Position numbers and translations under genes: made by a program. 33,463 nucleotides of DNA from Roseibacillus sp. (lineage in GTDB: Bacteria > Verrucomicrobiota > Verrucomicrobiia > Verrucomicrobiales > Akkermansiaceae): contig PARF01000051.1 in NCBI GenBank assembly GCA_002709915.1, positions 1 to 33,463 of the forward strand. The letters are read 5' to 3'. Within the stretch, counting starts at the first letter, position 1. Each line of letters starts with the position of its first letter. The notes under the pieces were generated by a model that searched no databases, was not told where the DNA came from, and saw only the letters and a program-made list of their open reading frames with translations. Shown in pieces: positions 432 through 24,198 of the stretch.

Positions 432-1484
432 ATGGCGCTTATGACTATCGCATCTCGGATTGGATTAAGCGCTGTTGCCGGAGTTGGTATTCTGCTGGCG
501 GGCTGTGGAAAGAAGGGCGGCGGAGATGAGAGTTCCCTGAAAGGGAAGACTTATGGCAAGTTCATCATCCTCGATGAGGTTATGACAGATGGGGGAGACC
601 GTTCGCTCGCCAAGAAGAACGCGGAGAATACCCTCAGTAAGTATCCCGAGATAGACGCCATGATCGGGCTCTGGGCCTATAATGCGCCCCAGTGTCTCGA
701 GGCTCTCAAGGATGCGGGTAAACTGGGTGCCGTGAAAGTGTTCTCTTTTGATGAGGACCCGGTGGCTCTGGACGCAATCAAGGACGGACACTGCGAGGGC
801 ACGATCGTGCAGGATCCCTATCTTTTTGGATACGACGCCATCAGGTATCTCAAGGATATCGTGGTAGATGACAAGATGCCCGAATTGAACGAAGGGAAGA
901 ACGTCCCTGTGCCGATCCGCACAATCGCCAAGGATAACGTGGAGGAATTTCGAAAGACCGTGGTTGATCGGTTGGAAGCAGGAGAGGCGGCCAAGGGCGC
1001 CGAGGTTCCCGCAAATGCTCCAAAGTTTGCCTTTATCACAAACGTAGCCGATCCCTTCTGGAGCCATGCCGAGGCTGGGTGTTATGTTGCTGCCAAGGAC
1101 TTTGGTGTTGCAGTTGATTTTCAGATGAACAGCGCTGGAGACATCGCCGGACAGAAAAAAATCGTGGAGAACATCCTCAACAAAGGAGATTGCAAGGGCA
1201 TCGCAATCAGTGTCCTCAATCCGGAGAATCAGACTGAGATGATCAACAATGCTGCTGAAACTCTCCCGCTGATTACTCACGATAGCGATGCCCCGGAGTC
1301 CAAGCGTCTTTTCTTCCTGGGAACCGAGAACTATCAGGCTGGCCGAGAACTCGGCAAACTGATCAAGAAGTCCATGCCTGAGGGTGGCAAACTCATGCTC
1401 TATGTGGGAAAGATTGACCAATTGAACTCGATTCAGCGCCGCGATGGTTTGCTCGATGAACTCGCGGGCAAGCCCGCCAAATAA
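432..1484 (+). CDS. Sugar ABC transporter substrate-binding lipoprotein with circularly permuted halves
   Basis: This 350-residue periplasmic-binding-protein type I (RbsB-like) lipoprotein captures a sugar and hands it to the permease encoded downstream. Residues 1-25 are a lipoprotein signal ending in LLAGC, with Cys25 as the lipidated residue. The halves are in reverse order. Residues about 41-190 match the part that normally comes second (YGKFIILDEVMTDGGDR, then the GLWAYN and FSFDEDP segments, ending in the C-terminal VPVPIRTIAKDN strand). Residues about 198-350 match the normal beginning (KFAFITNVADPFW, then the SVLNPENQ and ITHDSDAP segments, ending RRDGLLDELAG). A linker of about 20 residues joins the natural C- and N-termini. 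The ATG at 432 is used; ATG 441 is also possible. The ATPase gene follows after 3 bp. A natural permutation, or a fusion left by a tandem duplication, is inferred; an assembly error cannot be excluded. Confidence 0.9.
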   Translation: MALMTIASRIGLSAVAGVGILLAGCGKKGGGDESSLKGKTYGKFIILDEVMTDGGDRSLAKKNAENTLSKYPEIDAMIGLWAYNAPQCLEALKDAGKLGAVKVFSFDEDPVALDAIKDGHCEGTIVQDPYLFGYDAIRYLKDIVVDDKMPELNEGKNVPVPIRTIAKDNVEEFRKTVVDRLEAGEAAKGAEVPANAPKFAFITNVADPFWSHAEAGCYVAAKDFGVAVDFQMNSAGDIAGQKKIVENILNKGDCKGIAISVLNPENQTEMINNAAETLPLITHDSDAPESKRLFFLGTENYQAGRELGKLIKKSMPEGGKLMLYVGKIDQLNSIQRRDGLLDELAGKPAK

Positions 1485-1487
1485 AAG

Positions 1488-2999
1488 GTGGCTGCAGACC
1501 CCGACTCCCAGCCACTCCTTGAGGCCCGCGCAATAAGTAAGCGCTTCGGGGGAGTTCGTGCCCTTGAGGGAGTAAGCGCTTCCTTCCATGCTGGCGAGGT
1601 TGTTGCCGTCATGGGAGAGAATGGGGCAGGGAAGAGTACGCTTATGAAGTGCCTTGCGGGCGTGCATCAACCGGATGCTGGGGAGGTTGTGGTGGACGGA
1701 AACATTGTTGAGATCGCGGACGTCCGAGCTGCCGAGGACCTTGGTATTGCATTTATTCATCAGGAATTGAACCTGGCAGAGAATCTTGACGTGGGAGCTA
1801 ATGTGTTCCTCGGCCGAGAACCTCGGATATTTGGTCCGTTCTTCAACCGTCGTGAGATTCGAATCCAGACTCAGGATCTTTTAAGATCGCTCGAGCTCCA
1901 GATTGCTCCTGACACTCGGGTAAGAAGTTTGCCCATAGGGCATCGTCAAATGGTTGAGATTGCCAAAGCGCTCTCACAAAAGGCGCGTATTCTTATCATG
2001 GACGAGCCGACCAGCTCGCTCTCCCTTCACGAGACCAGAATCCTTTTTCGACTCGTGAACAAGCTTCGTGAAGAAGGAATGTGTATTGTTTTTATTTCAC
2101 ACCGGATGGCGGAAGTAGAGCAAATCGCGGATCGTGTCATCGTTCTGAAAGATGGGCACAACAGCGGAGGACTTGGGAGAGAAGAGATCAGCCGGGAAAG
2201 TATCGTTTCTCTGATGGTAGGTCGGGAGCTCGTTGCACATGAAAAAACGGTCGCGAAGCCCGGTAAGGTTCTTCTGGAAATCGGTGATCTCCGGGTTGCA
2301 CGATTCCCTGACAGCACGGTGAGCTTTGAGGTGCGATCCGGTGAAGTCGTTGGAATGGCTGGTCTGGTGGGAGCAGGTCGCACGGAAGTCGCACGGGCAA
2401 TTTTCGGTATAGATCGCGCTCTGGGTGGCACAATCCGGGTCAAGGGTGAAGATGTGAATATCAAACACCCACAGGATGCGGTTCGAGCTGGACTGGCCCT
2501 CGTCCCGGAGGATCGCAAGGCACAGGGGGCAATCCTGAATCTCGCTATCCGTGACAACGTTGCCATGGTGGGGATGAATCATTGGCAGAGCGGTGGGTTT
2601 GTAAATGATCGCCAGATCGACGGGCAGGCGGAAGAAGCCCGGAAGTCATTGCGGATTCGGACTCCCAGCACGAGACAGGAGGTTTCCACTCTCTCGGGGG
2701 GAAACCAGCAGAAGGTGGTCCTCGCCAAGTGGATGCCGTTGCAGCCTCAGATCTTTCTCCTCGATGAGCCGACCCGGGGAATCGACGTAGGATCCAAAAG
2801 CGAAATTTACGAGGTTATCGACAGGATGACGGCAGAGGGTGCGGGAGTTCTCGCGATTTCAAGCGAGTTAGAGGAGATTCTTCGCATCTCGGATCGGGTC
2901 CTCGTCATGCACGAGGGACGCATCGCTGGAGAGGTGCGCAGGGATGATCCACAGTTTTCAGAGAAAGGAATCATGCAACTTGCTACCGGAGGAAAATAA
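1488..2999 (+). CDS. Sugar ABC transporter ATP-binding protein (RbsA/XylG/MglA type, two ABC domains)
   Basis: This 503-residue cytoplasmic ATPase energises sugar import with the neighbouring permease and lipoprotein. The first ABC domain has Walker A GENGAGKST (about residues 43-51), a weak signature LPIGHRQM (about 148) and Walker B ILIMDEPTS (about 168). The second has an altered P-loop, GLVGAGRTE (about 292-300), which lacks the usual Lys, a canonical signature LSGGNQQ (402-408) and Walker B FLLDEPTRG (about 423). Double ABC domains of about 500 residues with one degenerate P-loop are typical of the CUT2 sugar-importer subfamily. The start is a GTG, 3 bp after the lipoprotein stop, with only AAGG directly before it, so translational coupling is likely. 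The permease gene starts 1 bp after this stop. Confidence 0.96.
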   Translation: MAADPDSQPLLEARAISKRFGGVRALEGVSASFHAGEVVAVMGENGAGKSTLMKCLAGVHQPDAGEVVVDGNIVEIADVRAAEDLGIAFIHQELNLAENLDVGANVFLGREPRIFGPFFNRREIRIQTQDLLRSLELQIAPDTRVRSLPIGHRQMVEIAKALSQKARILIMDEPTSSLSLHETRILFRLVNKLREEGMCIVFISHRMAEVEQIADRVIVLKDGHNSGGLGREEISRESIVSLMVGRELVAHEKTVAKPGKVLLEIGDLRVARFPDSTVSFEVRSGEVVGMAGLVGAGRTEVARAIFGIDRALGGTIRVKGEDVNIKHPQDAVRAGLALVPEDRKAQGAILNLAIRDNVAMVGMNHWQSGGFVNDRQIDGQAEEARKSLRIRTPSTRQEVSTLSGGNQQKVVLAKWMPLQPQIFLLDEPTRGIDVGSKSEIYEVIDRMTAEGAGVLAISSELEEILRISDRVLVMHEGRIAGEVRRDDPQFSEKGIMQLATGGK

Positions 3000-3000
3000 A

Positions 3001-4047
3001 ATGTTTTCAGTGAAGAAAGCCCTTAAGGAAAATCCCAAGCTTCTGGTGATCTTTGGATTGCTAGTCCTTCTGTTCACGGCGACGAGTATTTTGCAGCCAT
3101 CTTTCCGTGATCCCGGTACCCTGACAAACACGATGCGATGGATTGGTCTTTATGGAATTATCTCAATCGGGGTCGCATTCGTAATCATAACCGGAGGTAT
3201 TGACCTGTCGATTGGGTCCCTGATCGCCTTGTCAGGGGTCATGCTTCCAATGCTCCTCAAGGGCGATATCTTCTTTTCTGAACCTCTACCGGTGCCATTT
3301 GCGTTTGGGCTCGTTTTGCTGATTTCCCTGGGGATTGGGTTTTTTCACGGAGTTATGGTGACCAAGCTCGGACTTCAGCCCTTCCTTGTCACCCTGTGCG
3401 GTCTGTTTATCTATCGGGGACTGGCGCGAGCTGCCGGGAATGATCAGACTCAGGGTTTTGGAGGAGACTTTGGAGAACTCAAAGACGCCTTGGTTAAGGA
3501 TAAGCTCTTCGATTTTGTGCCCATGTCATTCGTTGTTCTCGTAATCATCGGGGTTATTGCAGCTGTCGTCCTCAATAAAACGGTCTTTGGGCGGTATCTC
3601 CTCGCGGTTGGTCATAATGAGGAGGCAGCGAAGTTCAGTGGGATTAAGACAGATCGAGTTAAGATCGCAGCCTACATGATCTGCTCACTTCTTGGCGGGT
3701 TCGCAGGTATGCTCTTTGTTCTTGATACGAATGGTGCGACGCCATCGTCCTTTGGAAACTTTTATGAGCTTTATGCTATCGCAGGGGCAGTGCTTGGAGG
3801 CTGTAGCCTGAGAGGCGGAGAAGGTGCGATTTTCGGGGTTATCTGCGGGGCGGCCCTGGTCCAAGTGGCTGAAAAGGCGGTGTTTTTCCTGGGAGTAGAA
3901 GAGAAGTCAAAGTTCACCGTGATCGGAATATTTATTCTTGTTGGCGTGATCGCAGACGAACTCTTCCGCCGTCTAAGTGACCGAAGGAGTGGTGCAGGTG
4001 GTGGCGGTGCTCCACCCAGTGAGGCCCCGGCAAGTCCTTCGTCCTGA
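3001..4047 (+). CDS. Sugar ABC transporter permease (RbsC/BPD_transp_2 family)
   Basis: A 348-residue inner-membrane protein with about eight to ten hydrophobic helices. It carries the family motif VIITGGIDLSIGSL (about residues 62-75), and KLGLQPFLVTL and AGAVLGGCSLRGGEG further on. It forms the channel of the importer encoded by the two genes upstream. ATG 3001 is chosen because a good ribosome binding site, GGAGG at 2988-2992, lies 8 bases before it; an earlier in-frame start at 2944 would overlap the ATPase gene. The C-terminus is a Gly/Pro/Ser-rich tail. The gene converges on the SDR gene, whose stop is 47 bp away, and no clear terminator is visible between them. Confidence 0.96.
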   Translation: MFSVKKALKENPKLLVIFGLLVLLFTATSILQPSFRDPGTLTNTMRWIGLYGIISIGVAFVIITGGIDLSIGSLIALSGVMLPMLLKGDIFFSEPLPVPFAFGLVLLISLGIGFFHGVMVTKLGLQPFLVTLCGLFIYRGLARAAGNDQTQGFGGDFGELKDALVKDKLFDFVPMSFVVLVIIGVIAAVVLNKTVFGRYLLAVGHNEEAAKFSGIKTDRVKIAAYMICSLLGGFAGMLFVLDTNGATPSSFGNFYELYAIAGAVLGGCSLRGGEGAIFGVICGAALVQVAEKAVFFLGVEEKSKFTVIGIFILVGVIADELFRRLSDRRSGAGGGGAPPSEAPASPSS

Positions 4048-4094: not shown

Positions 4095-4853
4095 TTACCA
4101 GGGAGTCATGCCGCCATTCACATAAAGGGTCTGTCCCGTAATGAAGGAGGCCTCCTCCGAGCAGAAAAACCGAACGGCGTGTGCGACGTCGTCGGGGACG
4201 CCCCACCGGCCCACAGGAATCTGTGACAGATAGGCGTCTTTCTTGTCCTGTGGGTCATCGGCATGGCGTTCCACGGGAATCCAGCCGGGGCCAACCATGT
4301 TGACGGTGATTCCGAAGGGTGCCAGTTCGCGGGCCATGGAGCGGGACCATCCAATCTGTCCTCCTTTTGCGGCGACATAGGCGGAAAATTCTGGAACGGA
4401 GGCAGAGAAGACCTCACTGATGATATTTACGTATCTGCCCCATCGGGTTTTCTTCATGAAGGGAAGGGTAGCCTGCGCGAGAAGGAACGGGCTCTTGATG
4501 AAGAACTCGTACATCTCATGGTAAAATGCTTCGTCGTATTCTTCGATCGGTTTGTGAGGTTGAGGGCCGGTCGCGTTTGGGACAACGATATCAATGGGTC
4601 CAAGTTTGGAAGTGACCTCTTCGACGAGTGTCGTAATCCCTCGTGAATCCGTAACATCTGCGGCCACTGCGATTGCCGTTCCTCCCTCGGAGTTAATGTC
4701 ATCCGCGATTTTCTGGGCGCGATCAACGTTGTTGAAGGCATTGACCGCAACGGAGGCCCCGGCAGAGGCTAGATTACGGACAATAGAGGCTCCAAGGCCC
4801 TTACTGCTACCGGTGACAAGGGCGACGTGGCCGGAAAGAGAGAAATCAGACAT
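4095..4853 (-). CDS. SDR family NAD(P)-dependent oxidoreductase
   Basis: A 252-residue classical short-chain dehydrogenase. The nucleotide-binding motif is TGSSKGLG (residues 14-21) and the catalytic set is Ser146, Tyr159 and Lys163 (YVAAK). The C-terminal SFITGQTLYVNGG segment is typical of the FabG-like group. The usual NNAG motif reads PNATG here, which is unusual. ATG 4853 is chosen because the glycine-rich motif then sits at the normal distance from the N-terminus; a longer frame upstream adds an unlikely 30 residues. It lies 65 bp downstream of the UxaA-type dehydratase on the same strand, so a role as a sugar or sugar-acid dehydrogenase in the same pathway is likely. The substrate is not evident. 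Confidence 0.92.
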   Translation of the reverse strand: MSDFSLSGHVALVTGSSKGLGASIVRNLASAGASVAVNAFNNVDRAQKIADDINSEGGTAIAVAADVTDSRGITTLVEEVTSKLGPIDIVVPNATGPQPHKPIEEYDEAFYHEMYEFFIKSPFLLAQATLPFMKKTRWGRYVNIISEVFSASVPEFSAYVAAKGGQIGWSRSMARELAPFGITVNMVGPGWIPVERHADDPQDKKDAYLSQIPVGRWGVPDDVAHAVRFFCSEEASFITGQTLYVNGGMTPW

Positions 4854-4918
4854 GAAGCGGAGGTTAGCCCAAGTTCGTCGGCCGGGAAGTCCCAATCCGC
4901 CTGCCTTGCAATCTCTTG

Positions 4919-6490
4919 TCAGGTGATAGCAGAGATGCTCCAAGGGACGAATTCATGATCTCCAAAACCCTGAATTTCAGATTTGGTCCGGGATCCTCCT
5001 GCGACTTCAACGATCCTATTGAGGATTCGGTCAGCCACCTCTGAGTGGTTTTCAATGCCATCCGCAATGGTTCCCGCATTGAGGTCCATGTCCTCCTCCA
5101 TTCGCTGGAACATGGTAGAGTTGCTCGCAATCTTAATCGAAGGGCAGGGTTTGTTCCCGTAGACTGATCCCCGGCCAGTGGTGAAGCAGATCATGTTTGC
5201 GCCCGATGCCACCTCTCCGGTAATTGACATGGGGTCGTATCCGGGGCTGTCCATAAAGTGAAGGCCCGGACCTACAGCCGGTTCAGCGTATCGAAGGACG
5301 GATTGCAGGGTTGTTGTCCCGCCCTTGCTGATTGCGCCAAGGGACTTCTCAAGGATGGTAGTGAGACCCCCCAGTTTATTTCCAGGAGCAGGATTGTTGC
5401 TGATATGGCCATCGAGCTTGGCCACGTAATCTTCCCACCACCTGACGAGGGAGATCAGTTTTTCGCCAACTTCCGTACTCGCAGACCTTCTCGTAAGAAG
5501 ATGTTCGGCGCCGTAGATTTCCGGAGTTTCGGCGAGAATTGCAGATCCACCTTGCTTGATGAGCTGGTCTACTGCCAGACCCAGAGCCGGGTTGGCAGTG
5601 ATTCCCGAGAGCCCATCTGAGCCTCCACACTGTAAGGCTAGACAGATTTCGTCGATAGGAACAGGCTCGCGTCGTGCCTTATCCGCATGGGGCAGGATCT
5701 CATTATGCAGACGGTCGAGACATGAGTCGATCGTCCTGCGGGTCCCCCCATGATGTTGAATGGTTTCAAGGTGAAAGCTTCCCTCAGGAGGTTTTCCAAA
5801 GTGCTCCACCATGAGCGGAATCTGATTTGCTTCGCAACCTAGTCCTACCATGAGGACCGATCCGAAATTGGGGTGACGGACATGACCCCAGATAGTTCGT
5901 TGCAGCATACGGAACCCCTCGTTTCTCGTGCTCACCGCGCAGCCAGCTCCATGAGTCAGTGCCACGACACCATCAACATTCGGGAAATCATCGAGGATTG
6001 CCCGCTTCTCGATCTCTTTCGCGATAAGTGATGCCACCGTGGCAGAGCAATTGACGGAGGTCAGAATGCCGACATAGTTGCGGGTGCCGACTTTTCCATC
6101 GTCGCGCCGATACCCCATGAAGGTGGACCGTTGATTCTCCGGGATAAGCTCTGTGGCGGAGGCATCCTCGGCAAAGGCATAATCACTGGAGTATTCCGCC
6201 ATCGTGAGATTGTGCTCATGGACGTGATCTCCCGGAAGAATTGAGCAGCTTGCCTGACCGATTACCTGTCCAAACTTAAAGACGTTGCAGCCGACAGGGA
6301 TCTTGGAGAGCGCCATTTTATGTCCCCCGGGGATCCGGCTGCGAGGTTTGACCTTGCAGCCACGTACGGTTCGGTCTGCCTCCAAAACTCCGCTGGCCAC
6401 GACGAGGTTGTCGTCTGGATGTAGTTGGAAGGCCTGAGGATGAGACATGGGAAGGACGCCGATGGAGCGCCCAGGATGGGTTTTCACCAT
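4919..6490 (-). CDS. UxaA family dehydratase (altronate/galactarate dehydratase type)
   Basis: A 523-residue cytoplasmic protein with an N-terminal SAF-like domain (FQLHPDDNLVVA, then a segment ending PGDHVHEHN) and a long UxaA domain beginning at YRRDDGKVGTRNYVGI. Conserved cysteine and histidine positions are seen in SVNCSATVA, THGAGCAVS and GLGCEANQIP. The C-terminal part includes FTTGRGSVYG and PSIKIASNS, as in altronate and galactarate dehydratases. These enzymes remove water from hexonates or aldarates to give 2-keto-3-deoxy acids. Start 6490 is chosen because GGAG lies 8 bases upstream; ATG 6448 is an alternative without a ribosome binding site. The downstream SDR gene is probably in the same operon. 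The exact substrate (altronate, galactarate, fuconate or other) cannot be told. Confidence 0.92.
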   Translation of the reverse strand: MVKTHPGRSIGVLPMSHPQAFQLHPDDNLVVASGVLEADRTVRGCKVKPRSRIPGGHKMALSKIPVGCNVFKFGQVIGQASCSILPGDHVHEHNLTMAEYSSDYAFAEDASATELIPENQRSTFMGYRRDDGKVGTRNYVGILTSVNCSATVASLIAKEIEKRAILDDFPNVDGVVALTHGAGCAVSTRNEGFRMLQRTIWGHVRHPNFGSVLMVGLGCEANQIPLMVEHFGKPPEGSFHLETIQHHGGTRRTIDSCLDRLHNEILPHADKARREPVPIDEICLALQCGGSDGLSGITANPALGLAVDQLIKQGGSAILAETPEIYGAEHLLTRRSASTEVGEKLISLVRWWEDYVAKLDGHISNNPAPGNKLGGLTTILEKSLGAISKGGTTTLQSVLRYAEPAVGPGLHFMDSPGYDPMSITGEVASGANMICFTTGRGSVYGNKPCPSIKIASNSTMFQRMEEDMDLNAGTIADGIENHSEVADRILNRIVEVAGGSRTKSEIQGFGDHEFVPWSISAIT

Positions 6491-7423: not shown

Positions 7424-8923
7424 TCAGACCGACAGCTCGCTGAGCTGAGCTTTAATAGTCGGATTGGCGCAGTAGGGGTCCTTGAATTTCTTTCCGTAAG
7501 TCGCCAGTTCACGAGCGAGAGAAGTTCCCATATCCTTGTGGCGGGGGTCACGAATACAATTAGTTAATTCGTCAGGATCCTCTTTCAGATCGAGAAGCCA
7601 TGGCTCATCCGAACTAGAAAGAATCAGCTTGTATCTTGGGGTGACTGCCGCGATCCATCCGACCCGATCGCTGTCATCCCGGCCTGTGGATCGGAGGAAT
7701 GTCACATCATGCCACCCGGGGGGAGTCCTTCCGGTCTGTAGAATTCTCGAGCAGTCACGGCCCTCTTCTCTGCCAGCTGACTTGATGTTCATAAGGCTGA
7801 GAATCGTTGGAAGGAAGTCGACCGTGTTGATCGCCTGATCTACCTGCGTTCCCTTTGGAAGCGCACCCGGATAGCGCATAACGAGAGGAACCTTGGCAGA
7901 GGCCTCGAGAGGAACGCCCTTGTTCTGGCGGTGGTGCTCCCCACGCATGTCTCCATGATCGGCGGTAAAAACGAAGATGGTGTCCTCAATCAGACCAAGC
8001 TTTTCCAGATGCCGGAGCAAGCGTCCAACATTGTCATCGATGCATTTCATCATCCCGTGATATTGGGCCATCCGGTAGTGGCACTTGGGTGCAGGCTTGG
8101 CCCACGAGGGGGCGCTTTCCGCTTTTTTATCATAGGTTCTCGGTTTGGTGACAACCGCGTCATCAAACATTGAATCATAGGGAGCCCGAACCGTGTCCGG
8201 TCCATGTGGATCAGGGATACTAAGCATGTAGCAGAACGGATTTTCCCGGTTCGCACTGATGAAATCCATCGCCTTGGAGGTAAGGAAGTCTGTCGCAAAG
8301 GACTTTTCATCAGCCCCGGCAACGGAGTAGCTCGGTTTGCCATTCTGTCTAGCTTTGACGCGTGGTCCTTTCGAGGTGTCCTCGAACTGCTTCCAGTGTC
8401 CGCGGTTAAACATGTATCGGTTATCTTCAAAGCCGAATTTGCGCCTCGGAGCCCACTGGGGTTTACCCTCTCCATCGAGATGCCATTTCCCGCCATAACC
8501 CGTCGAGTAGCCTGCCTTTCGAAGAGTTTCAGCAAACGTAACTACCTCGTCTCCTAGCCGCACGCTGTTATTGGTGACCGGGGTATTGTGAGGGTATTGG
8601 CCACTGATAAACGAAGAGCGGGATGGAGAGCAGACAGGAGTTGCAGCGTAGAATTTTGTGCAGATTGCACCTTCTTTGGCGATTCGATCAATATGAGGAG
8701 TGTCGCAGACGGCTCCTTTCGCTCTTCCCCACATATAGGCTTGTTCCGGTTGGAGGGTTTCCCGATAGCAGCCGATAGTACGGAAATTCAGCTCATCGCA
8801 GTGTATGATTACAAGATTAGGCTTCCGAGGAGGGCCTTGCGCGAGGACCTTCGCTGCGGCTGCTGACGAAAGGGCACCACCAGAGGCTGCGGTAGAGGAT
8901 TTAATAAAGCGACGGCGTTTCAT
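7424..8923 (-). CDS. Tat-exported sulfatase (arylsulfatase family)
   Basis: A 499-residue S1-family sulfatase that would hydrolyse sulfate esters, probably on a polysaccharide. It begins with a twin-arginine signal, RRRFIKSSTAAS, so it is exported folded. The formylglycine motif is CSPSR (Cys98 to Arg102), which must be matured by a formylglycine-generating enzyme; none is in the window. Metal-binding segments are VIIHCDELN (about 38-46) and FTADHGDMRGEH. GGKWHLDG is also typical. ATG 8923 starts the Tat signal. The phospholipase D-like gene ends 71 bp upstream on the same strand. The substrate is unknown. Confidence 0.95.
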   Translation of the reverse strand: MKRRRFIKSSTAASGGALSSAAAAKVLAQGPPRKPNLVIIHCDELNFRTIGCYRETLQPEQAYMWGRAKGAVCDTPHIDRIAKEGAICTKFYAATPVCSPSRSSFISGQYPHNTPVTNNSVRLGDEVVTFAETLRKAGYSTGYGGKWHLDGEGKPQWAPRRKFGFEDNRYMFNRGHWKQFEDTSKGPRVKARQNGKPSYSVAGADEKSFATDFLTSKAMDFISANRENPFCYMLSIPDPHGPDTVRAPYDSMFDDAVVTKPRTYDKKAESAPSWAKPAPKCHYRMAQYHGMMKCIDDNVGRLLRHLEKLGLIEDTIFVFTADHGDMRGEHHRQNKGVPLEASAKVPLVMRYPGALPKGTQVDQAINTVDFLPTILSLMNIKSAGREEGRDCSRILQTGRTPPGWHDVTFLRSTGRDDSDRVGWIAAVTPRYKLILSSSDEPWLLDLKEDPDELTNCIRDPRHKDMGTSLARELATYGKKFKDPYCANPTIKAQLSELSV

Positions 8924-11312: not shown

Positions 11313-13508
11313 CTAGAGTCCCAGCTCCAGAAGTTTGGGCTCAATCGCCTCGGCCCAGATCTCATAGCCTTTTTCCCGGGGATGAAGAAAGTCCGGCATG
11401 ATTTCCTTCGGAAGATGTCCCGTCTTGGATAAAAAGTGATGGCTTATATCGAGGAAGTGAACGCGTTTGCCATCATGAAAGTTGGCAAGTCGCTTATTGA
11501 GAGCGTCATTGATCCGCCGCTTTGGACCCTCAGGGGCTGCATCCCGGGGAAAGACTCCGAGAAGGAGAACCTTGGCGTCGGGACACCGTGCACGTAGAAT
11601 GGACAGGATCCGTGAGACTCCGTCGGCGGTTTCCCCGGGATTCTGATTCCTATGGCCCGTGTTGTTGGTGCCGATCATGAGAACGGCTACCTTGGCTTTC
11701 TGCTGTTTGCGAAGATTTCCATTGTTGAGTCGCCAGATCACATGCTCAGTACGGTCACCTGAGATGCCGAGGTTGAGTGCTTTCCGTTTCCCATAATACT
11801 TTTCCCAGCTCTTTCTGCCGGCTCCTTCCCATCCCTGGGTGATGGAGTCTCCAATAAAGAGAAGATCGTGAGAGCGAGCACTTGCCTTTCGATTCATTTC
11901 GGAGTGGCGCTTTTTCCACCAGTCCTCATTCAGTCTTTCATCGGGCAGAAGGGCAACGTGAGCACGGTAGTCCTTCTTCAAGCTCTCATATTGTTTTTTC
12001 AGCCCATCAAAAGCATCAGCATACTCTGGGTCGTTGTGTACGCTCTTCATTTGTTGTGGATCCTTCTCATTGTCGAAGAGTTGCCACTCCTGATATTTGG
12101 GGACATAAAACAGGGTGTAACGTTCTGTGCGGATTCCATCATGTCGAGCCACCTGGTGCGTCTGTTCGCCGTAGTAAGCGTAATATAATGCTTCGCGCCA
12201 GTTCGCGGGCTTCTCTTTGCTGTTTTTGAGAAGAGGAACAATGCTCCGGCCCTGCATGTCACGCGGAATTTCAGCTCCGCAGACGTCCAGAAAGGTCGGC
12301 CCATAGTCGATATTCTGGATGAGGGCCTTGGTCGTAGAGCCGGCCTTGATCACGCCGGGCCAGCGAATGACAAAGGGCATCTTGAAGCTTTCCTCAAACA
12401 TCCAGCGCTTGTCATACCACCCGTGCTCACCGAGGTAGAAGCCCTGGTCGCTCGAATAGATCACGATGGTGTTCTTTGCCAGTCCGCTTTCGTCGAGGTG
12501 TTGCAGGACGCGTCCAACGCCCTCGTCTACACTGGCGATGCTCTTGAGATAGTCCTTTATGTAGCGTTGGTATTTCCAGCGCACGATGTCTTTCTTGCTG
12601 AGCTTGCCGGCCTTCATATCCGCGATGAACTTCTGGTTTTCCGGCTCGTATACGGCGTCCCATGCCTTTTTCTGAGCGTCGTTCATCCGCTGATACTGGC
12701 GATTGACTATGCCACTTGAGAAGTGATTGGGAAAGAGGTTGGGCCCATTGAACTTCATGTCGTGGCCCCAGTACATGTGTTTATCGATGCCCATGGCATG
12801 TTCGCCAAGTACCTTGCTACGGTCGGCATAATCGTCGAAGAGGCTGTCGGGTTCCGGCATAGTGACGCCTTTGAAGAGTTCGAGATGTCGCAGAGCGCCG
12901 GACCAGTTACGATGAGGGGCCTTGAACTGGATCATGGCCACGAAGGGCTTTTCCTTGTCTCGATCCTCCCTGATCCACTTCAGTCCGAAGTCGGTGACGA
13001 GATCGTTGCAGTGGCCCTCGTAGCGCTTGCGACTTCCGTCCATCTCGATGAAGTCCGGATTATAGTAGGCTCCCTGCCCAGGGAGAATACGCCAGAAATC
13101 GAATCCGATGGGATTAGAGTGGAGGTGCCACTTTCCGATCATTGCGACCTCGTAGCCGGTATTTCTCAACAACTGGGGAAAAGTTTGTTGGTTGCCGTCA
13201 AAATAGGACGAGTTGTTATCGAGGAACCCGTTGAGGTGACTGTGTTTTCCGGTCAGGATATTCGCCCGGGAGGGACCACAGATTGAATTCGCGCAGAAGG
13301 AGTTCTCAAAAAGCATACCCTCATTCGCGATCCGGTCGATGTTTGGCGTGGGAGCAATCTGGTCGAAAAGGCCTCCTGGGTAAGCCGAGATTGCATTGCA
13401 GGCATGATCATCGGAAAACATAAAGATGATGTTAGGCCTTTTGTCAGCTGCATTACATGGGAGCAGAAAGGCCCCAATACTGAAAAGGGAGAGACGAAAA
13501 TAGTTCAT
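11313..13508 (-). CDS. Fused sulfatase and SGNH/GDSL esterase, secreted
   Basis: A 731-residue two-enzyme protein. After a signal peptide (MNYFRLSLFSIGAFLLPCNA), residues about 25-520 form an S1 sulfatase with the formylglycine motif CGPSR (Cys77 to Arg81), metal site FMFSDDH, MIGKWHLHS, and YSSDQGFYLGEHGWYDKRW, as in choline-sulfatase and iduronate-sulfatase relatives. Residues about 545-731 form an SGNH hydrolase: GDSITQGW (Ser555), NLGISGDRT, IGTNNTG and the terminal DFLH dyad (Asp706, His709). The esterase part resembles acetylhydrolases, so one chain could remove both sulfate and acyl groups. ATG 13508 is chosen because it starts the signal peptide; a TTG 39 bases upstream also exists. 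The gene is divergent from the gene at 13714. Confidence 0.93.
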   Translation of the reverse strand: MNYFRLSLFSIGAFLLPCNAADKRPNIIFMFSDDHACNAISAYPGGLFDQIAPTPNIDRIANEGMLFENSFCANSICGPSRANILTGKHSHLNGFLDNNSSYFDGNQQTFPQLLRNTGYEVAMIGKWHLHSNPIGFDFWRILPGQGAYYNPDFIEMDGSRKRYEGHCNDLVTDFGLKWIREDRDKEKPFVAMIQFKAPHRNWSGALRHLELFKGVTMPEPDSLFDDYADRSKVLGEHAMGIDKHMYWGHDMKFNGPNLFPNHFSSGIVNRQYQRMNDAQKKAWDAVYEPENQKFIADMKAGKLSKKDIVRWKYQRYIKDYLKSIASVDEGVGRVLQHLDESGLAKNTIVIYSSDQGFYLGEHGWYDKRWMFEESFKMPFVIRWPGVIKAGSTTKALIQNIDYGPTFLDVCGAEIPRDMQGRSIVPLLKNSKEKPANWREALYYAYYGEQTHQVARHDGIRTERYTLFYVPKYQEWQLFDNEKDPQQMKSVHNDPEYADAFDGLKKQYESLKKDYRAHVALLPDERLNEDWWKKRHSEMNRKASARSHDLLFIGDSITQGWEGAGRKSWEKYYGKRKALNLGISGDRTEHVIWRLNNGNLRKQQKAKVAVLMIGTNNTGHRNQNPGETADGVSRILSILRARCPDAKVLLLGVFPRDAAPEGPKRRINDALNKRLANFHDGKRVHFLDISHHFLSKTGHLPKEIMPDFLHPREKGYEIWAEAIEPKLLELGL

Positions 13509-13561
13509 GAGTGGATTCAGGACAGCAGACCATGCCGTTTTGGACAAGCGTGGGAGGACGC

Positions 13562-17732: not shown

Positions 17733-18211
17733 ATCGGAATGGAGTTCGGTCAGGAGAATCCCCGTGGGGGGCGGGTAATAGGCTCTCTCGGGCTTCCGGT
17801 CAACCTGAATTGTAGAGAGAAAGTATCTCTTATAAGGGGATAATCGCTATAAAATCTGGTATTTGAGAGTGATTGGCTTCCTGGTCCGTGGTCTGGCAAG
17901 GCTACGGGTGCTCTACCGGGGAGCCGATGGACTCCAAAGATAGGAATCGTCATCTAATCGGTGTCGCCTATTTAAGATGGATGCATGATATTTCCCATGA
18001 GGGTGCTTTCTAACGATGGTCTCTTGATCTGAAGCCGGGCGCATGAGGATTGTTGATGGGGCGACGGAGAGGGCGCTCGCAGATGCAGAGAGTAGTTCGA
18101 GCCCCGTTTCTCAAGATTTGTGTCAGTAGAGCCGGGAGTCTTCTACTGTGCCAGCAGGCAGGTTTATGGTTGGGTTCTGCGTCAACCGCCTCATCCTCAG
18201 GGGAAGAGAAC
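17733..18211. other. 479-bp intergenic region between the small basic gene and the aldolase operon
   Basis: No convincing protein gene is seen; open frames here lack a plausible start or family signal. One long frame runs in front of the aldolase from 18050, but its first 54 residues look non-coding (Arg/Ser/Gly-rich). The region holds a strong plus-strand RNA hairpin (17875-17925) and a TATAAA box at 17848-17853 without a good -35 element. The promoter of the aldolase operon should lie here. Confidence 0.6.
17875..17925 (+). ncRNA. Structured RNA candidate (two stacked helices with a 7-nt bulge)
   Basis: GGCTTCCTGGT (17875-17885) pairs fully with ACCGGGGAGCC (17915-17925), 11 bp including two G-U pairs. 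Directly inside it CCGTGGTC (17886-17893) pairs with GGCTACGG (17900-17907), 8 bp including two G-U pairs, closing the loop TGGCAA. The seven bases GTGCTCT (17908-17914) remain as a bulge. The G-U pairs would be A-C mismatches on the minus strand, so the structure favours a plus-strand transcript. No uridine run follows, so it is not a simple terminator. It may be a leader element of the aldolase operon, which starts 286 bp downstream, or a separate small RNA. No known RNA family is recognised with confidence. Confidence 0.4.
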
Positions 18212-18973
18212 ATGAAGAATACGCCACTAGAAGACTTGCTTAGGCTTTCACATGAGATCGGCAGGGAGGATCGCCGGCTTGCCATCCTTGGGGAGGGTAA
18301 TACCTCAGCGCGAGTTGCGGATGATGAATTCCTGGTCAAGGCGAGCGGCTCATGTCTGGAAAATCTGCGGAGCGATCAAGTTACTCGCTGTCTCTCGAGT
18401 AAGGTGCTCACCCTCATGGAGGACCGTGGGAGGGAATTTTCAAATGAGGAGGTTGATGAAATCCTCCAAGCGAGCAGATGCGACCCGGCAGCAAAAAAGC
18501 CGAGTATCGAGACCATGTTTCATGCGTGGCTTCTTTCCCTCGATGGGGTAGACTTTGTGGGTCATTGCCATTCAGAGGCGGCCAACAAGATTCTATGCAG
18601 CAGCAGGGCGCGTGACTTTGCAGAGAACCGGATCTTCCCCGATGAGATTGTATGCTGTGGGCGGGCCTCGGTCTTCGTGGGGAATTGTGACCCGGGCCTT
18701 CCGCTTGCGCTTGAAATCAAGCGGGAAACGCGGAAATACATCCAAGAGTATGGAGAGGCCCCGCGGTTAATTTTGCTGGAAAATCATGGAATCATTGCCC
18801 TTGGAAAAACCGCTGATGCTGTGCTTGCTTGCACATTCATGGCAGATAAGGCTGCGAATATCTTTGAGGGTGCTGCATCACTCGGTGGTCCGGTATTCCT
18901 GCCACGGGATCAGATCGAGCGTATCGCTGGGAGGCCTGACGAAGTCTACCGGCAGAAGCAGTTGAATCTTTAA
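18212..18973 (+). CDS. Class II aldolase/adducin family protein (sugar-phosphate aldolase-like)
   Basis: A 253-residue cytoplasmic protein of the L-fuculose/L-rhamnulose-phosphate aldolase family, which splits sugar 1-phosphates into dihydroxyacetone phosphate and an aldehyde using zinc. Visible motifs are GEGNTSAR (27-34), KASG (43-46), the catalytic Glu segment PSIETMFHAW (Glu at about 100), zinc ligands in GHCHSE (His118, His120) and LLENHGIIALG. ATG 18212 is chosen because GGGGAAGAG lies just upstream and the family N-terminus fits; a longer frame from 18050 adds an unlikely leader. The FGGY kinase gene follows after 24 bp, matching the usual kinase-aldolase pair of deoxysugar or pentulose breakdown. 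The substrate is not determined. Confidence 0.92.
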   Translation: MKNTPLEDLLRLSHEIGREDRRLAILGEGNTSARVADDEFLVKASGSCLENLRSDQVTRCLSSKVLTLMEDRGREFSNEEVDEILQASRCDPAAKKPSIETMFHAWLLSLDGVDFVGHCHSEAANKILCSSRARDFAENRIFPDEIVCCGRASVFVGNCDPGLPLALEIKRETRKYIQEYGEAPRLILLENHGIIALGKTADAVLACTFMADKAANIFEGAASLGGPVFLPRDQIERIAGRPDEVYRQKQLNL

Positions 18974-18997
18974 GAGCGTCAATGCCACCGCGTATCG

Positions 18998-20386
18998 ATG
19001 GGTTACCTTGGAATTGATCTGGGCACTGGTGGTGTGCGTTGTCTTCTCGTGGAGGACGATGGTGCCATCCGGTCGGAAAGTTCCCAGAAACTGGGTAATC
19101 GTAACTTGGCACGAGAGGTCGGTCGCTCGGAGCAAGATCCGGAGGAATGGGTTCTCGCGCTGGAGGATGCCATGGATCACCTGTTTTCTGATCCTGCTCA
19201 TCGCGATGTGCATGCGGTCGCGGTGGATAGCACTTCGGGGACGGTTCTCCCGGTGAGTCCTGATGGCAATCCGCTTGGAAGGGCCCTTATGTATGATGAT
19301 ATGCGGGCTACGGAGGAAGCGGATCGTTGTGGGGAGGTATTTGGAGGAAGATGCTCGCCAACCTTTTCCCTTCCTAAAATTCGATGGATGCAGAGCCATC
19401 TTGATTTGCCGGAAGATGTGCTCTTTTTCCATGCGGCCGACTTCGTCAACAGTTGGCTGGCAGGAACTCCTGAGATTCCAACTGATTTTACCAATGCCAT
19501 GAAGACGGGAGTTGACCCGGCTTTTGGAAAATGGCCATCCAGTCTGGTGGATCTCAGCTTGCCTGAGGTTGTGGCTCCGGGGCGGCGAATTGGATTCCTG
19601 AGTGAAAGGCATTGCAAGCGATGGCAATTGCCCCGGGAGGTAGTGCTTGTGAGTGGAGCGACCGATTCAAATGCAGCATTTTATGCCTCCGGCGCTGCGA
19701 GTCCCGGAGACTGGTCAACAACGGTGGGGACAACAATGGCGTTCAAGGGTGTGAGTGAGAGAAAAATCGAAGACCCGCAAGCGAGAATCTACTGCCATCG
19801 ACATCCGGATGGATCATGGCTGCCAGGTGGCGCGTCAAATGCCGGTGGAGAGATAGTGCGTCGACGTTTCGGTAATCGTATCGAGGAAATAGAACTGCGG
19901 TCACGGGAACGAGAAGAGACTAGTCATCTTATATATCCCTCAGTGCGTCAGGGTGAGCGCCTTCCGTTTGCCAGTAGTTCCTTCAAGCCCTTTTGTGATG
20001 GTGAGGAGGATGATGAAGTAGGATTTTTTCTTGGTTGTTTAGAGGGACTAGCATGCCTTGAGGCACTGGTATTCGAGTTGATCGAATCTTTAGGGGGAGT
20101 TGTTGGAGAAAACCTCTATGCGACCGGGGGAGGATCCCGGAGTCGGCGGAGTCTTCAGGTGCGTGCTGATATGCTGTGCAAATGTATCAAGATCCCAGCC
20201 CACCCCCATTCGGCAATGGGAGCCGCGATTCTGGCTGCTGCTGGATTTCATGGTGATCCTGTTGGGAACTGGTCTCGCAGGATGGTAAAAATGTCTCAGG
20301 TCGTGGAGCCTGAGAGCGGAAGAGAGAGCTACTACCGGGACCGATTTCTTGAATTCAGCGCACGCTGCCATCAGTCCCTCATATAG
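18998..20386 (+). CDS. FGGY-family carbohydrate kinase
   Basis: A 462-residue sugar kinase of the FGGY family (xylulose, ribulose, fuculose and rhamnulose kinases), which phosphorylates an open-chain ketose with ATP. The N-terminal nucleotide-binding motif is GIDLGTGGVRCL (4-15), the substrate-side segments are DSTSGTVLPV and YDDMRA, and the C-terminal domain has SGATDSNAA, TVGTTMAFKG and the ATP-binding ATGGGSRS. The partner aldolase lies directly upstream and the HAD phosphatase starts 4 bp after this stop, so the genes form one operon. The length is slightly below that of typical family members (about 480-540), with the C-terminal helices seemingly complete. Confidence 0.93.
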   Translation: MGYLGIDLGTGGVRCLLVEDDGAIRSESSQKLGNRNLAREVGRSEQDPEEWVLALEDAMDHLFSDPAHRDVHAVAVDSTSGTVLPVSPDGNPLGRALMYDDMRATEEADRCGEVFGGRCSPTFSLPKIRWMQSHLDLPEDVLFFHAADFVNSWLAGTPEIPTDFTNAMKTGVDPAFGKWPSSLVDLSLPEVVAPGRRIGFLSERHCKRWQLPREVVLVSGATDSNAAFYASGAASPGDWSTTVGTTMAFKGVSERKIEDPQARIYCHRHPDGSWLPGGASNAGGEIVRRRFGNRIEEIELRSREREETSHLIYPSVRQGERLPFASSSFKPFCDGEEDDEVGFFLGCLEGLACLEALVFELIESLGGVVGENLYATGGGSRSRRSLQVRADMLCKCIKIPAHPHSAMGAAILAAAGFHGDPVGNWSRRMVKMSQVVEPESGRESYYRDRFLEFSARCHQSLI

Positions 20387-20390
20387 TGCA

Positions 20391-21098
20391 ATGCCAATAG
20401 ATTTAGTCATTTCAGACCTCGATGGAACGATCTTGGAGACCGAAGACTACCATCGGAGGGCATATAATGCTCTGTTTCGTGAATTGAACCTTTCGCGGGA
20501 GTGGAGTGAGGAAGATTACAAGGCGCGGCTCGCCACGATGGGTGGAGCAAAGTTCGATGAGATCCTCAAATGGCTCTCGCCGCCCGTGGAAAATCATGGT
20601 GAGACCTGCAGGAAATTGTATGCGCGAAAGACGGAACTGTATGTGGATCTTGTTGTAGATGCGCTCGACCGAGAAGAGCTTGCTCTCCGGCCCGGGGTGA
20701 AATCTCTTTTCAAGGAAGTGATCGGCTCCGGGGTGGGACTGGCTGTTGGATCGGCGTGTGTCAAGTGGGCCGCGGAAAAAGTCCTCGAGGCTTCGTTGGG
20801 TGAGGAGCTCGTTTCGTCGCTGGAAACGGTGTGCGCCGGTGATGATGTGGAGGCTAAGAAGCCCGATCCGCAGGTGTATCTATTGGTAGCACAGCGTTGC
20901 GGGGTAGAGCCGCGAAATTGTTTTGTCATTGAAGATACAAGGCATGGCATGGAGGCCGCGCATAATGCGGGAATGCGTTGTCTTGTGACACCCAGCAAGC
21001 TTGCGAAAGGTGATGTGTTTCAGGGAGCCGCGGGGGAGATTGAAAGCCTTGAGGGAATTGGCATTCAGGATTTACGCGTGTTCTGGGAAAACTACTAA
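20391..21098 (+). CDS. HAD-superfamily phosphatase/phosphomutase (beta-phosphoglucomutase-like)
   Basis: A 235-residue haloacid-dehalogenase-type hydrolase. Motif I is SDLDGTILE (nucleophile Asp8 and Asp10), motif II GSACV, motif III KKPDPQVY and motif IV VIEDTRHGMEAA, the pattern of subfamily IA phosphatases that act on sugar phosphates. ATG 20391 is used: it starts 4 bp after the kinase stop and gives the normal distance to motif I. The position after a kinase and an aldolase suggests removal or isomerisation of a sugar-phosphate intermediate, but this is an inference. Confidence 0.92.
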   Translation: MPIDLVISDLDGTILETEDYHRRAYNALFRELNLSREWSEEDYKARLATMGGAKFDEILKWLSPPVENHGETCRKLYARKTELYVDLVVDALDREELALRPGVKSLFKEVIGSGVGLAVGSACVKWAAEKVLEASLGEELVSSLETVCAGDDVEAKKPDPQVYLLVAQRCGVEPRNCFVIEDTRHGMEAAHNAGMRCLVTPSKLAKGDVFQGAAGEIESLEGIGIQDLRVFWENY

Positions 21099-21150: not shown

Positions 21151-22713
21151 ATGGAAATGATTCGTCTCGCTGCAGTGCTGGTGCTTTTTTGGCCGGAAGT
21201 GATCGAAGGTGCCGATCGTCCAAATATTCTCTTCGCGATTTCGGATGATCAGTCTTGGATGCATGCCAGTGCCTATGGCGATAAGGGGACAAGCACACCG
21301 GCATTTGACCGGGTGGCACGGGAGGGAATTCTTTTCACGCACGCGTTTGCTTCCTGCCCTTCCTGCATGCCGTCCCGGACCTCGATTCTTACCGGGCGGA
21401 ACATGTGGGAGACTGGACCCGGGGGGAATCTGATGGGGTCCTTGAAATCTGAGTATGCCATTTTCTCGCTCCTCCTCCAGCAATCCGGATACCAGCTGGC
21501 CGCAACAGGAAAGACATGGGGGCCGGGAAAACTGGAGGGATTTACCCCGGCTGCAGGAAAAACGTTGCCACCCCGTTCGTATTCCTCAATCCATACCGAA
21601 GCAATTCTAGGCACCTCTTTTCACCGCAGGACATTGAAGGAGCGGCGTCCGGGAATGAGCCATCTTGATTATGCGTCTAACTTCGAGGACTTCCTCGCTA
21701 GCCGGGACAGGGAGAAGCCATTTTTCTTCTGGTATGGCTCGAATGAGCCTCACCAGAGGTTTGAGAAAGGGGCATGGAAAAAACATGGAAAGAAGCTGGA
21801 AGATGCGTTGCTACCCGGAAGCCTGCCGGATCACCCGGTTGTTCGGGGAGAGTTTCTCGACTACGCTCTTGAGATCGAGCACTTCGATACGCATCTCGGA
21901 AGGATGCTCGATATTCCTGAAAGGGAAAATCTGCTGGAGAATACCTTGATCGTGGTTACCAGCGATCATGGAAATCCGATGCCCCGATCCAAGTGCAACC
22001 TTTATGATTCTGGAACCCGGGTGCCTCTCGCTATTCGATTCCCCGGACCCGCCAAGAAAGGTGTGACTCGTCGAGATCTGGTTAACCTTATTGATCTCGC
22101 CCCAACTTTTCTGGAAGCGGCCGAGATTGAGATTCCAGCAGAGATGAACGGTCAGTCATTACTGAAAACGGGTAGTGCTCGATCGCGCGATTTTGTCGTT
22201 ACCGGATTCGAGCGCCATATTATCTGTCGCCGTGATGGAGTAGGTTACCCTGCACGGTGCATCCGAACTAATTCTTTTGCCTACATTCGGAACTATGAGC
22301 CGACTCGATGGCCGGCGGGCGATCCGGATTTCGTGTCGTCCCACCAGGGATTCCTTGGGGATTGTGACCGTGGAGCGACCAAGGAGTTCCTTATGAATAA
22401 ATGTAGTGAAACTGGAATAGCGCCTTACTACCGACTCTCTTTTGGGCGGCGTCCTGCTGAGGAGTTGTATGATATGAAGCAGGATCCGCATCAGTTGAGG
22501 AACCTCGCGGAGGACGAGCAATTTGCAGAGATAAAGTCATCGCTTCGGCAAAAGATGGAAGATTATCTTCGTGTGACTGATGATCCACGGATGCAAGGCC
22601 AGTCTCCCTGGGACGACTACGAGTTCACCGATAAGAGGATCTTTGGAAATCCGCGATGGAGAGAGGAGGGGCTTGCACTTCCAAGTGTGATCCTCGAACA
22701 CCGCCCCGATTAA
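21151..22713 (+). CDS. Sulfatase (S1 family, N-sulfoglucosamine-sulfohydrolase-like)
   Basis: A 520-residue secreted sulfatase. Residues 1-20 are a signal peptide ending EVIEGA. The formylglycine motif is CMPSR (Cys72 to Arg76), preceded by a second cysteine in CPSC. The metal site is FAISDDQSW, and VTSDHGNPMPRSK carries the second set of metal ligands. The spacing and the ATGKTWGPGK segment resemble heparan N-sulfatase-like members of the family; the true substrate is not known. It lies 52 bp downstream of the HAD gene on the same strand, so desulfation and sugar breakdown appear cotranscribed. It converges on another sulfatase gene. Confidence 0.93.
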   Translation: MEMIRLAAVLVLFWPEVIEGADRPNILFAISDDQSWMHASAYGDKGTSTPAFDRVAREGILFTHAFASCPSCMPSRTSILTGRNMWETGPGGNLMGSLKSEYAIFSLLLQQSGYQLAATGKTWGPGKLEGFTPAAGKTLPPRSYSSIHTEAILGTSFHRRTLKERRPGMSHLDYASNFEDFLASRDREKPFFFWYGSNEPHQRFEKGAWKKHGKKLEDALLPGSLPDHPVVRGEFLDYALEIEHFDTHLGRMLDIPERENLLENTLIVVTSDHGNPMPRSKCNLYDSGTRVPLAIRFPGPAKKGVTRRDLVNLIDLAPTFLEAAEIEIPAEMNGQSLLKTGSARSRDFVVTGFERHIICRRDGVGYPARCIRTNSFAYIRNYEPTRWPAGDPDFVSSHQGFLGDCDRGATKEFLMNKCSETGIAPYYRLSFGRRPAEELYDMKQDPHQLRNLAEDEQFAEIKSSLRQKMEDYLRVTDDPRMQGQSPWDDYEFTDKRIFGNPRWREEGLALPSVILEHRPD

Positions 22714-22770: not shown

Positions 22771-24198
22771 TCAAAGAGATCCCTTGGGGCGCTTGTTCGC
22801 CCTCAGACTGGTATCAAACTTCTTTGCGAGGTCCCGCAGACGATTGACGACTTGAGGATTATCTCCGGCTATGTTCGATTTCTGGCTAAGGTCCTTTTCA
22901 AGATCATAGAGGGTCACCTCTGTCTCTTTCTGAATATAGGGTCCAGGAATTCCATCCTTTCCTGGCTGATCTTTCAGACTGCGATAGGAGTGATTGAGAT
23001 GGAGACTCCATTTTCCAGAGCGAACCGCTTCAAGCCGGTCTCCACGGTAAAAGAAATACGCCTCGTGTGGACTCTCAGCCTCCCCGGGATTAGTGAGCAG
23101 GGAAATGATGTCTCGCCCATCAATCTGGTGGGGAGGTTCTTTCCCCCCCACAATATTCTGTATCGTTGGGAAAAGATCAATGTGCATGGCCGGAGTATGA
23201 CAAGCTTGGCCTGCAGGAATTCTACGAGGCCAACGCACGATGCAGGGGACCCGTTGCCCCCCTTCCCACGTAGTGCCCTTTCCTTCGCGGAGTGGTTGAG
23301 CGCTCCCGGCGTGGTTTCCGTAGCTCAACCAAGGCCCGTTGTCGCTGGTGAACAAGATCAAAGTATCGTCAGCCAGTTCAAATTTCTTCAGGGCCGCCGT
23401 GATCTGACCGACAGACCAGTCTATTTCCATGATGACATCCCCGTAAAGTCCCTGTTCAGATTTGCCCTTGAATTTGTCCGAGACGAAAAGAGGAACGTGA
23501 GGCATGGAGTGGGCCACGTAGAGGAAGAAGGGGTTAGTCCGGTTACGGGAAATGAAGTCCACTGCCCTTTCAGTGTAAGAGGTTGTGAGGCCAACCTGAT
23601 CCTCAGGCGAAACCTCTGTGTTGATGATTTCGTTACCCTCAATCATAGGGAGGTGAGGCCAGCGCTTCAGTCTCTTTTCCATTGGGAGATGGCGGACGCC
23701 CGGATGGTAGGGCCACATGTCATTGGAAAAGGGCAATCCATAGTATTCGTCGAAACCGTGCTGGAGAGGCAGAAACTTCTTCAGGTGACCCAAGTGCCAC
23801 TTTCCAAACAGGGCTGTGGCGTAGCCGCGATCCTTGAGCATCTCGGAGATAAGAACCTCTCCGTCTGCAATTCCCCCTCTCGAACTTGGGCCGGGAGCTC
23901 CAAGCATGTTGATACGATTCGGATAGCAGCCGGTGAGTAGTCCGGCTCGGGAGGCGCCACACACTGCCTGAGGAACATACCAGTTGGTAAAGATCAGCCC
24001 CTCGTCCGCCAGCCGGTCGAGGTGGGGTGTCGAGAACCCCTTCGCGCCGAATTTTCCTACATCAGCATAACCCTGATCATCGGTCATGATGATGACAATA
24101 TTAGGGGACCGAGTGGAGGTTTTGTTTCCTGTCGCAGAGACAGTGACCGGTACAATGCCAGTAATGAGTGTCAGAAATAAAAGATATACGGTCTTCAT
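22771..24198 (-). CDS. Sulfatase (arylsulfatase A-like, CGASR motif)
   Basis: A 475-residue secreted sulfatase with a signal peptide at residues 1-22 (MKTVYLLFLTLITGIVPVTV). The formylglycine motif is CGASR (Cys80 to Arg84), the accepted C-x-A-x-R variant of the usual C-x-P-S-R, and is followed by AGLLTGCYPNR. Metal ligands are in VIIMTDDQGYADVG and LFTSDNGPWLSYG; FGKWHLGH is also typical of arylsulfatase A relatives. It is convergent with the sulfatase at 21151, and a candidate terminator lies just behind it. The substrate is not known. Confidence 0.95.
   Translation of the reverse strand: MKTVYLLFLTLITGIVPVTVSATGNKTSTRSPNIVIIMTDDQGYADVGKFGAKGFSTPHLDRLADEGLIFTNWYVPQAVCGASRAGLLTGCYPNRINMLGAPGPSSRGGIADGEVLISEMLKDRGYATALFGKWHLGHLKKFLPLQHGFDEYYGLPFSNDMWPYHPGVRHLPMEKRLKRWPHLPMIEGNEIINTEVSPEDQVGLTTSYTERAVDFISRNRTNPFFLYVAHSMPHVPLFVSDKFKGKSEQGLYGDVIMEIDWSVGQITAALKKFELADDTLILFTSDNGPWLSYGNHAGSAQPLREGKGTTWEGGQRVPCIVRWPRRIPAGQACHTPAMHIDLFPTIQNIVGGKEPPHQIDGRDIISLLTNPGEAESPHEAYFFYRGDRLEAVRSGKWSLHLNHSYRSLKDQPGKDGIPGPYIQKETEVTLYDLEKDLSQKSNIAGDNPQVVNRLRDLAKKFDTSLRANKRPKGSL

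Follow-up and report, generated by a model that had tools for sequence, protein, structure and literature searches.

A circularly permuted sugar-binding lipoprotein from Roseibacillus and the probable repeated switching of half order in its importer family

The window, that is, the whole stretch of 33,463 nucleotides analysed from a Roseibacillus sp. contig (PARF01000051.1), carries near its left end a forward-strand gene (positions 432–1484) for a permuted sugar-binding lipoprotein of 350 residues (P0001), assigned on profile matches, on matches between structures and sequences, and on an order that is kept in relatives. As read from the sequence, the protein begins with a lipoprotein signal peptide (432–506) and the lipobox LAGC, which contains Cys25. 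The second, or C, half of a solute-binding protein (SBP) comes next, in first place (residues 41–190; 552–1001), delimited by alignments to PF13407 and to the structure 2qvc and by the elements of a structure model from strand 44–52 to helix 170–188. A short join of the old C terminus to the old N terminus (residues 191–197; 1002–1022), placed by sequence and model, leads into the first, or N, half, which stands last (residues 198–350; 1023–1481), is bounded by the alignments and ends after the model helix 330–345. All these parts and the two following genes lie on the forward strand. An earlier note on this DNA, made from the letters alone, had given the ORF coordinates, the frame and the 350-residue product, all of which were borne out on re-reading. 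Three nucleotides past the SBP stop codon, a GTG start opens the gene for an RbsA/AraG-type tandem ATPase of a sugar ABC importer (1488–2999), which follows the SBP in most relatives examined. Its end is overlapped by the gene for an RbsC-type permease (BPD_transp_2; 2944–4047), recognised by a profile match and by the neighbourhood of relatives, and the receptor gene of the window is found in an operon with both.

The window protein scored 180.1 bits with PF13407 (Peripla_BP_4), for which the cut-off is 35.1. The match falls into two stretches, the strongest of which paired residues 204–348 with profile positions 7–151. In the canonical T. maritima protein 2qvc, residues 11–150 corresponded to residues 205–344 of the window protein, and residues 158–250 corresponded to residues 48–140. 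Because each half was highly significant by itself, a chance match is excluded. The canonical order, with the N half first, is not that of the window protein; its halves are inverted, and this inversion makes it a permuted variant of the PF13407 family. The earlier note had placed the second half of an RbsB-like protein before the first, with the signal peptide still in front. The PF13407 and 2qvc alignments agree with that order, and the lipobox with Cys25 precedes the second half. The proposed position of the break, in the C-lobe where a helix gives way to a strand, was upheld by the structure model, in which the cut lies in the C-lobe past the first strand-helix unit. The description of the join fared less well: in place of a linker of ∼20 residues, the model gives a loop of ∼9 residues (189–197), and the joined ends, said to lie near the hinge, are placed in the N-lobe instead, with helix 170–188 and strand 198–203 being elements that we take to belong to the N-lobe of the type I fold.

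In the structure prediction that had been suggested as a check, AlphaFold2 folded the window protein as one compact protein (pLDDT 85.2, pTM 0.81), poor only in the signal region, with the halves forming a single binding-protein fold. A phmmer search found the PDB entry 5er3 to be colinear with residues 42–349 (E 2.9e-78), and the predicted model, a two-lobed clamp, matched this crystal structure with a TM of 0.73–0.79, a Z of 35.3 over 304 residues and 42–43% identity; canonical structures matched the model weakly or by one half only. The conjecture that the fold could survive the permutation thus found support both in the model (pLDDT 85) and in a crystal structure with the same order. 5er3, a solute-binding protein of Rhodopirellula baltica SH 1, shares half order and cut with the window protein, and both chains start near GKY/GDY and finish near DELAGKP. 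A canonical Poribacterial relative has the same predicted strands and helices in rotated order. The nearest canonical solved relative is the T. maritima glucose-binding protein (2h3h, 2qvc and 3c6q; ∼32% identity, over both halves), whose order is canonical, unlike that of the window protein. 5er3 was deposited and released in 2015, so the window gene adds one more case to an order that the PDB already contains. No paper on 5er3 or its topology was found among open-licence PMC papers, an absence that is weak evidence.

The earlier note knew of no described natural permuted binding protein of this family; such an absence is not supported, given 5er3, with the same cut, and Tp0684, with another. 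TpMglB-2 (Tp0684) of T. pallidum is a natural permuted sugar-binding lipoprotein described in 2016, which binds glucose, changes shape and is part of an ABC importer (PMC4990184). This “Type Ic” protein and the window protein are both circularly permuted type I SBPs and both lipoproteins, but TpMglB-2 is MglB-like, with ∼14% identity to the window protein, and is cut in the N-lobe, its first three strands having moved to the end, whereas the window protein is cut in the C-lobe. The position of the cut places the window protein outside the Tp0684 class, and its membership of “Type Ic” was ruled out. For the T. maritima ribose-binding protein, isolated lobes fold and permuted constructs are tolerated (PMC9815098); those are engineered single lobes, whereas the window protein is natural and whole. 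The natural circular permutations of DNA methyltransferases and of saposin/swaposin, for which permutation by duplication is favoured (PMC3320104), concern folds other than that of the window protein. Among open-licence PMC papers we found nothing relevant on permuted SBPs in Planctomycetes/Verrucomicrobia, which is again weak evidence, and no account of an operon family whose receptor was permuted repeatedly, and probably reversibly, at two cut sites.

Colinear full-length relatives occurred in several genomes of the window's genus at 68–98% identity and also in more distant Verrucomicrobiota. The search for the same order in related genomes, which the earlier note had proposed, turned it up in independent assemblies at 44–98% identity to the window protein; one of these relatives (L003/L032) sits on a 360-kb contig, and Blastopirellula marina DSM 3645 (L093) carries the same permuted order. 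The dN/dS of the window gene against close relatives was 0.03–0.09, with similar values for the two halves, and both halves are under purifying selection. Positions 1–1470, at the left end of the window's contig, overlap with the right end of another contig in its bin, C48 (L002), at 95% identity, and the overlap includes a second copy of the permuted gene; this probably reflects two strains in one bin, for which contamination is 5.5%. Among the matches listed for the window's genus, seven genomes had a permuted SBP, five had a distant canonical one with a short linker, and none had both.

When 84,980 species genomes were scanned with a profile, most of the permuted and canonical relatives came from Verrucomicrobiota, Planctomycetota and Poribacteria; further canonical relatives came from Acidobacteriota, Hydrogenedentota and Pseudomonadota. 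Because the scan relied on two conserved peptides, it may miss divergent permuted forms. Within the window's taxonomic order, the family was present in 112 of the 387 genomes sampled, with ∼15 of the 112 permuted. The sampled Planctomycetota had it in 72 of 392 genomes (10 with the window-type permutation and 2 with another order), and the Poribacteria had it in 5 of 85 (three permuted and two canonical). In Verrucomicrobiota, Planctomycetota and Poribacteria, three orders were found before the same RbsA-RbsC pair, namely the canonical order, the window-type permutation and a second permutation. The last, represented by L173 (genome G1032) and L174 (genome G1202, on a 3.84-Mb contig), runs from the lipobox through the later part of the second half and the first half to the early part of the second half. 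Compared with 5er3, these proteins are rotated again, residues 371–429 corresponding to 27–85 and residues 96–355 to 86–333, and they are cut ∼60 residues beyond the window-type cut, also at a helix-strand boundary. At nearly all loci with enough flank, an SBP of any of the three orders was followed by the ATPase and usually by the permease. The same operon behind every order indicates that all three are variants of a single transporter component.

Trees were built from 90 proteins with the halves rearranged into canonical order, giving an SBP alignment of 294 columns. The whole-SBP tree required six changes for the window-type permutation, five of them on starred branches, and the bootstraps gave six changes across the 5–95% range. 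The N-half and C-half trees required six changes each and kept the key pairs. As an independent check, the tree of the unpermuted partner RbsA required seven changes, with L056/L058 adjoining L037 and L012 adjoining L132. Placing all permuted proteins in one clade was rejected by the AU test (p = 4e-47 on SBP, p = 9e-41 on RbsA); the clades tested were chosen after the first tree had been seen, and L012, L053 and L163 are each represented by one MAG. On the trees, 5er3 falls among permuted planctomycete proteins in a clade apart from the Verrucomicrobiota/Poribacteria clade of the window gene, and because a single clade of all permuted proteins is rejected, the 5er3-type order of the window protein may be convergent. 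A chimera of different paralogues was rejected, as the N-half and C-half trees agree in how many switches they need and in the key pairs. Whole operons may have been transferred horizontally between lineages; the order changes remain. Two genomes of one genus, G054 and G433, have sister SBPs in opposite orders (L012 and L132) and sister ATPases (L193 and L194); a further, separate canonical copy (L199) is present in G433.

With a canonical root, the six changes are best read as about four gains and, probably, two returns to the canonical order. The gains would fall on L053, on L163, on the planctomycete clade with 5er3 and on the Verrucomicrobiota/Poribacteria clade with the window gene; the returns would be L056/L058 and L012, and the second cut site would have been used once. 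A reversible two-state model was better than an irreversible one by 2ΔlnL 11–13.5 on the SBP and RbsA trees. In the Poribacteria, the canonical L056/L058 group with the permuted L037/L039/L067 at 79–86% identity per half and in the same operon position. The linker of the canonical L056, SGLPSTAIMAGKYIILD, resembles the tail that follows Cys in the permuted L037, SSLPDTAITAGKYIIID, and the likeness is also seen in the DNA, to within a few codons of the Cys codon. This match shows that the two forms derive one from the other, through relocation of the signal peptide to a place beside the stretch; taken alone, it is neutral as to direction. Since the two canonical Poribacterial proteins are nested within permuted ones and have a linker similar to the N-terminal tail of a permuted relative, a reversal to canonical order in this group is likely. 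The nesting is not decisive for the direction of change, because holding L037 and L039 together was not rejected on the SBP tree (AU p = 0.32), and holding L037, L039 and L067 together was weakly rejected on RbsA (p = 0.029). On balance we lean towards the view that, in one orthologous importer operon, receptor permutation has been recurrent and reversible, one loop having been the site of six switches or more, some of them back to the original order. A second cut site would have arisen independently, and the Poribacterial proteins would be natural two-way permutants, 79–86% identical per half.

Many canonical relatives have ∼12–36 extra residues between the halves and others have 0–4, and the permuted chains start and finish inside this inter-half loop of their canonical relatives. 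Planctomycete permuted proteins end in LLDKPIP-like stretches, which resemble the start of the canonical linker (LLDRP). We infer that insertion of a loop preceded the permutation and made the site tolerant; a loop at the cut would accept new termini, and the order could then switch there repeatedly. In the DNA, a tandem duplication may have come first, as the earlier note had supposed, and the outer parts may then have been lost in frame, with the signal peptide staying in front; such duplication with trimming is a plausible route and the one that we prefer. No intact tandem, partial duplicate or split intermediate was found among the loci fetched. At the Poribacterial locus L067 (6814–7314), the last 34 codons and the intergenic stretch are tripled in units of 167 nt, with a 157-nt repeat further downstream; the tripling shows that the site duplicates and is not a permutation intermediate.

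Several other accounts of the swapped halves were considered. A contig end is 432 nt away from the window gene, and contig C48 of the bin ends in a second copy with 95% identity, so that a canonical tandem pair might have been collapsed or misjoined and the halves might only look swapped. This is extremely improbable, because the same junctions recur in independent assemblies, including the 360-kb contig and B. marina DSM 3645, a permuted protein (5er3) was expressed and crystallised, and selection has acted on both halves; recurrence of the order in independent genomes, together with the crystal structure, rules out assembly error. A single ancient permutation, with every canonical relative outside one permuted clade and the observed scatter due to tree error, could appeal to the shortness of the SBP trees (294 columns) and to long branches on some rows. 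It is very unlikely in view of its rejection by AU tests on two genes (p < 1e-40 on both SBP and RbsA), of the at least six changes on the whole, N-half, C-half and partner ATPase trees, and of the Poribacterial and L012/L132 pairs, which recur in every tree. If instead the canonical order was ancestral everywhere, with gains only, the permutation arose, by our count, about nine times independently at the same loop. The long loop at the cut in many canonical relatives could be a hotspot, and the Poribacterial nesting on the SBP tree is not firmly resolved; this history is possible but doubtful, for it needs about nine changes versus six, and the irreversible model that it implies was the worse one on both the SBP and the RbsA trees.

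Other alternatives concern the route and the cause. Permutation by duplication and fission followed by fusion are two recognised routes (PMC3320104), and under the latter the halves would once have been separate genes, rejoined in the other order. The folding of isolated lobes of ribose-binding protein (PMC9815098) is in keeping with this, but at the loci examined we noticed no gene split into the two halves, and we consider the route unlikely. That the permutation adapts the protein to membrane tethering, an idea put forward for Tp0684 (PMC4990184), would suit the lipoprotein nature of the window protein and of nearly all permuted relatives (lipobox in 34 of 35, the exception being a partial record). 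However, by a simple lipobox pattern, 47 of the 52 canonical relatives are also lipoproteins, including the close L056, L058, L012 and L175. With lipoproteins so common among the canonical relatives as well, tethering fails to account for the permutation and is a decidedly improbable cause. Repeated switching by duplication and trimming at a tolerant loop remains the reading that we favour.

Forty-eight near-invariant positions carry the identical residue in both orders. They include N204, F209, W210, D284, R336, N84, D107 and Q127, which would correspond to positions in the ribose pocket of E. coli RbsB. With residues kept in both orders and predicted elements that are rotated but equal, the window protein most likely has ordinary sugar-receptor function. 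It would be exported, lipidated at Cys25 and folded into a two-lobed clamp, which would bind a sugar-like ligand in its cleft and pass it to the RbsA-RbsC pair encoded downstream; sugar binding and transport by the window operon are inferred. Comparison of sequences and structures demonstrates the permutation, the fold, the operon, the purifying selection and the conservation across genomes. As a whole, the best explanation, to which we assign a probability of roughly 85%, is that the gene encodes a permuted, lipid-anchored sugar receptor of a ribose/arabinose-type importer, in a lineage with repeated switching at a tolerant loop.

Natural circular permutations are usually viewed as rare, old, one-way events between distant relatives. 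Here the same orthologous gene is found in both orders at ∼80% identity and in the same operon position, and another group has the other cut, the window gene being one member of a series of orders. With close natural pairs of this kind, one can ask what effect, if any, the order of the chain has on folding, export, tethering or ligand binding, and whether permutation becomes accessible once a loop has been inserted. They also carry a warning, as colinear homology tools show permuted proteins as two partial matches.

Elsewhere in the window, a short-chain dehydrogenase and a relative of galactarate/altronate dehydratase are encoded on the reverse strand (4095–6490), convergent with the transporter operon, and possibly belong to a sugar-acid pathway. 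A class II aldolase, an FGGY sugar kinase and a HAD hydrolase lie in a row (18050–21098), as in sugar breakdown operons. Four sulfatase genes are present (7424–8923, 11313–13547, 21151–22713 and 22771–24198), of which that at 11313–13547 is joined to a GDSL lipase domain. The sulfatases, the aldolase, the kinase and the dehydratase-like gene suggest that the substrate may be sugars or sugar acids derived from sulfated polysaccharides.
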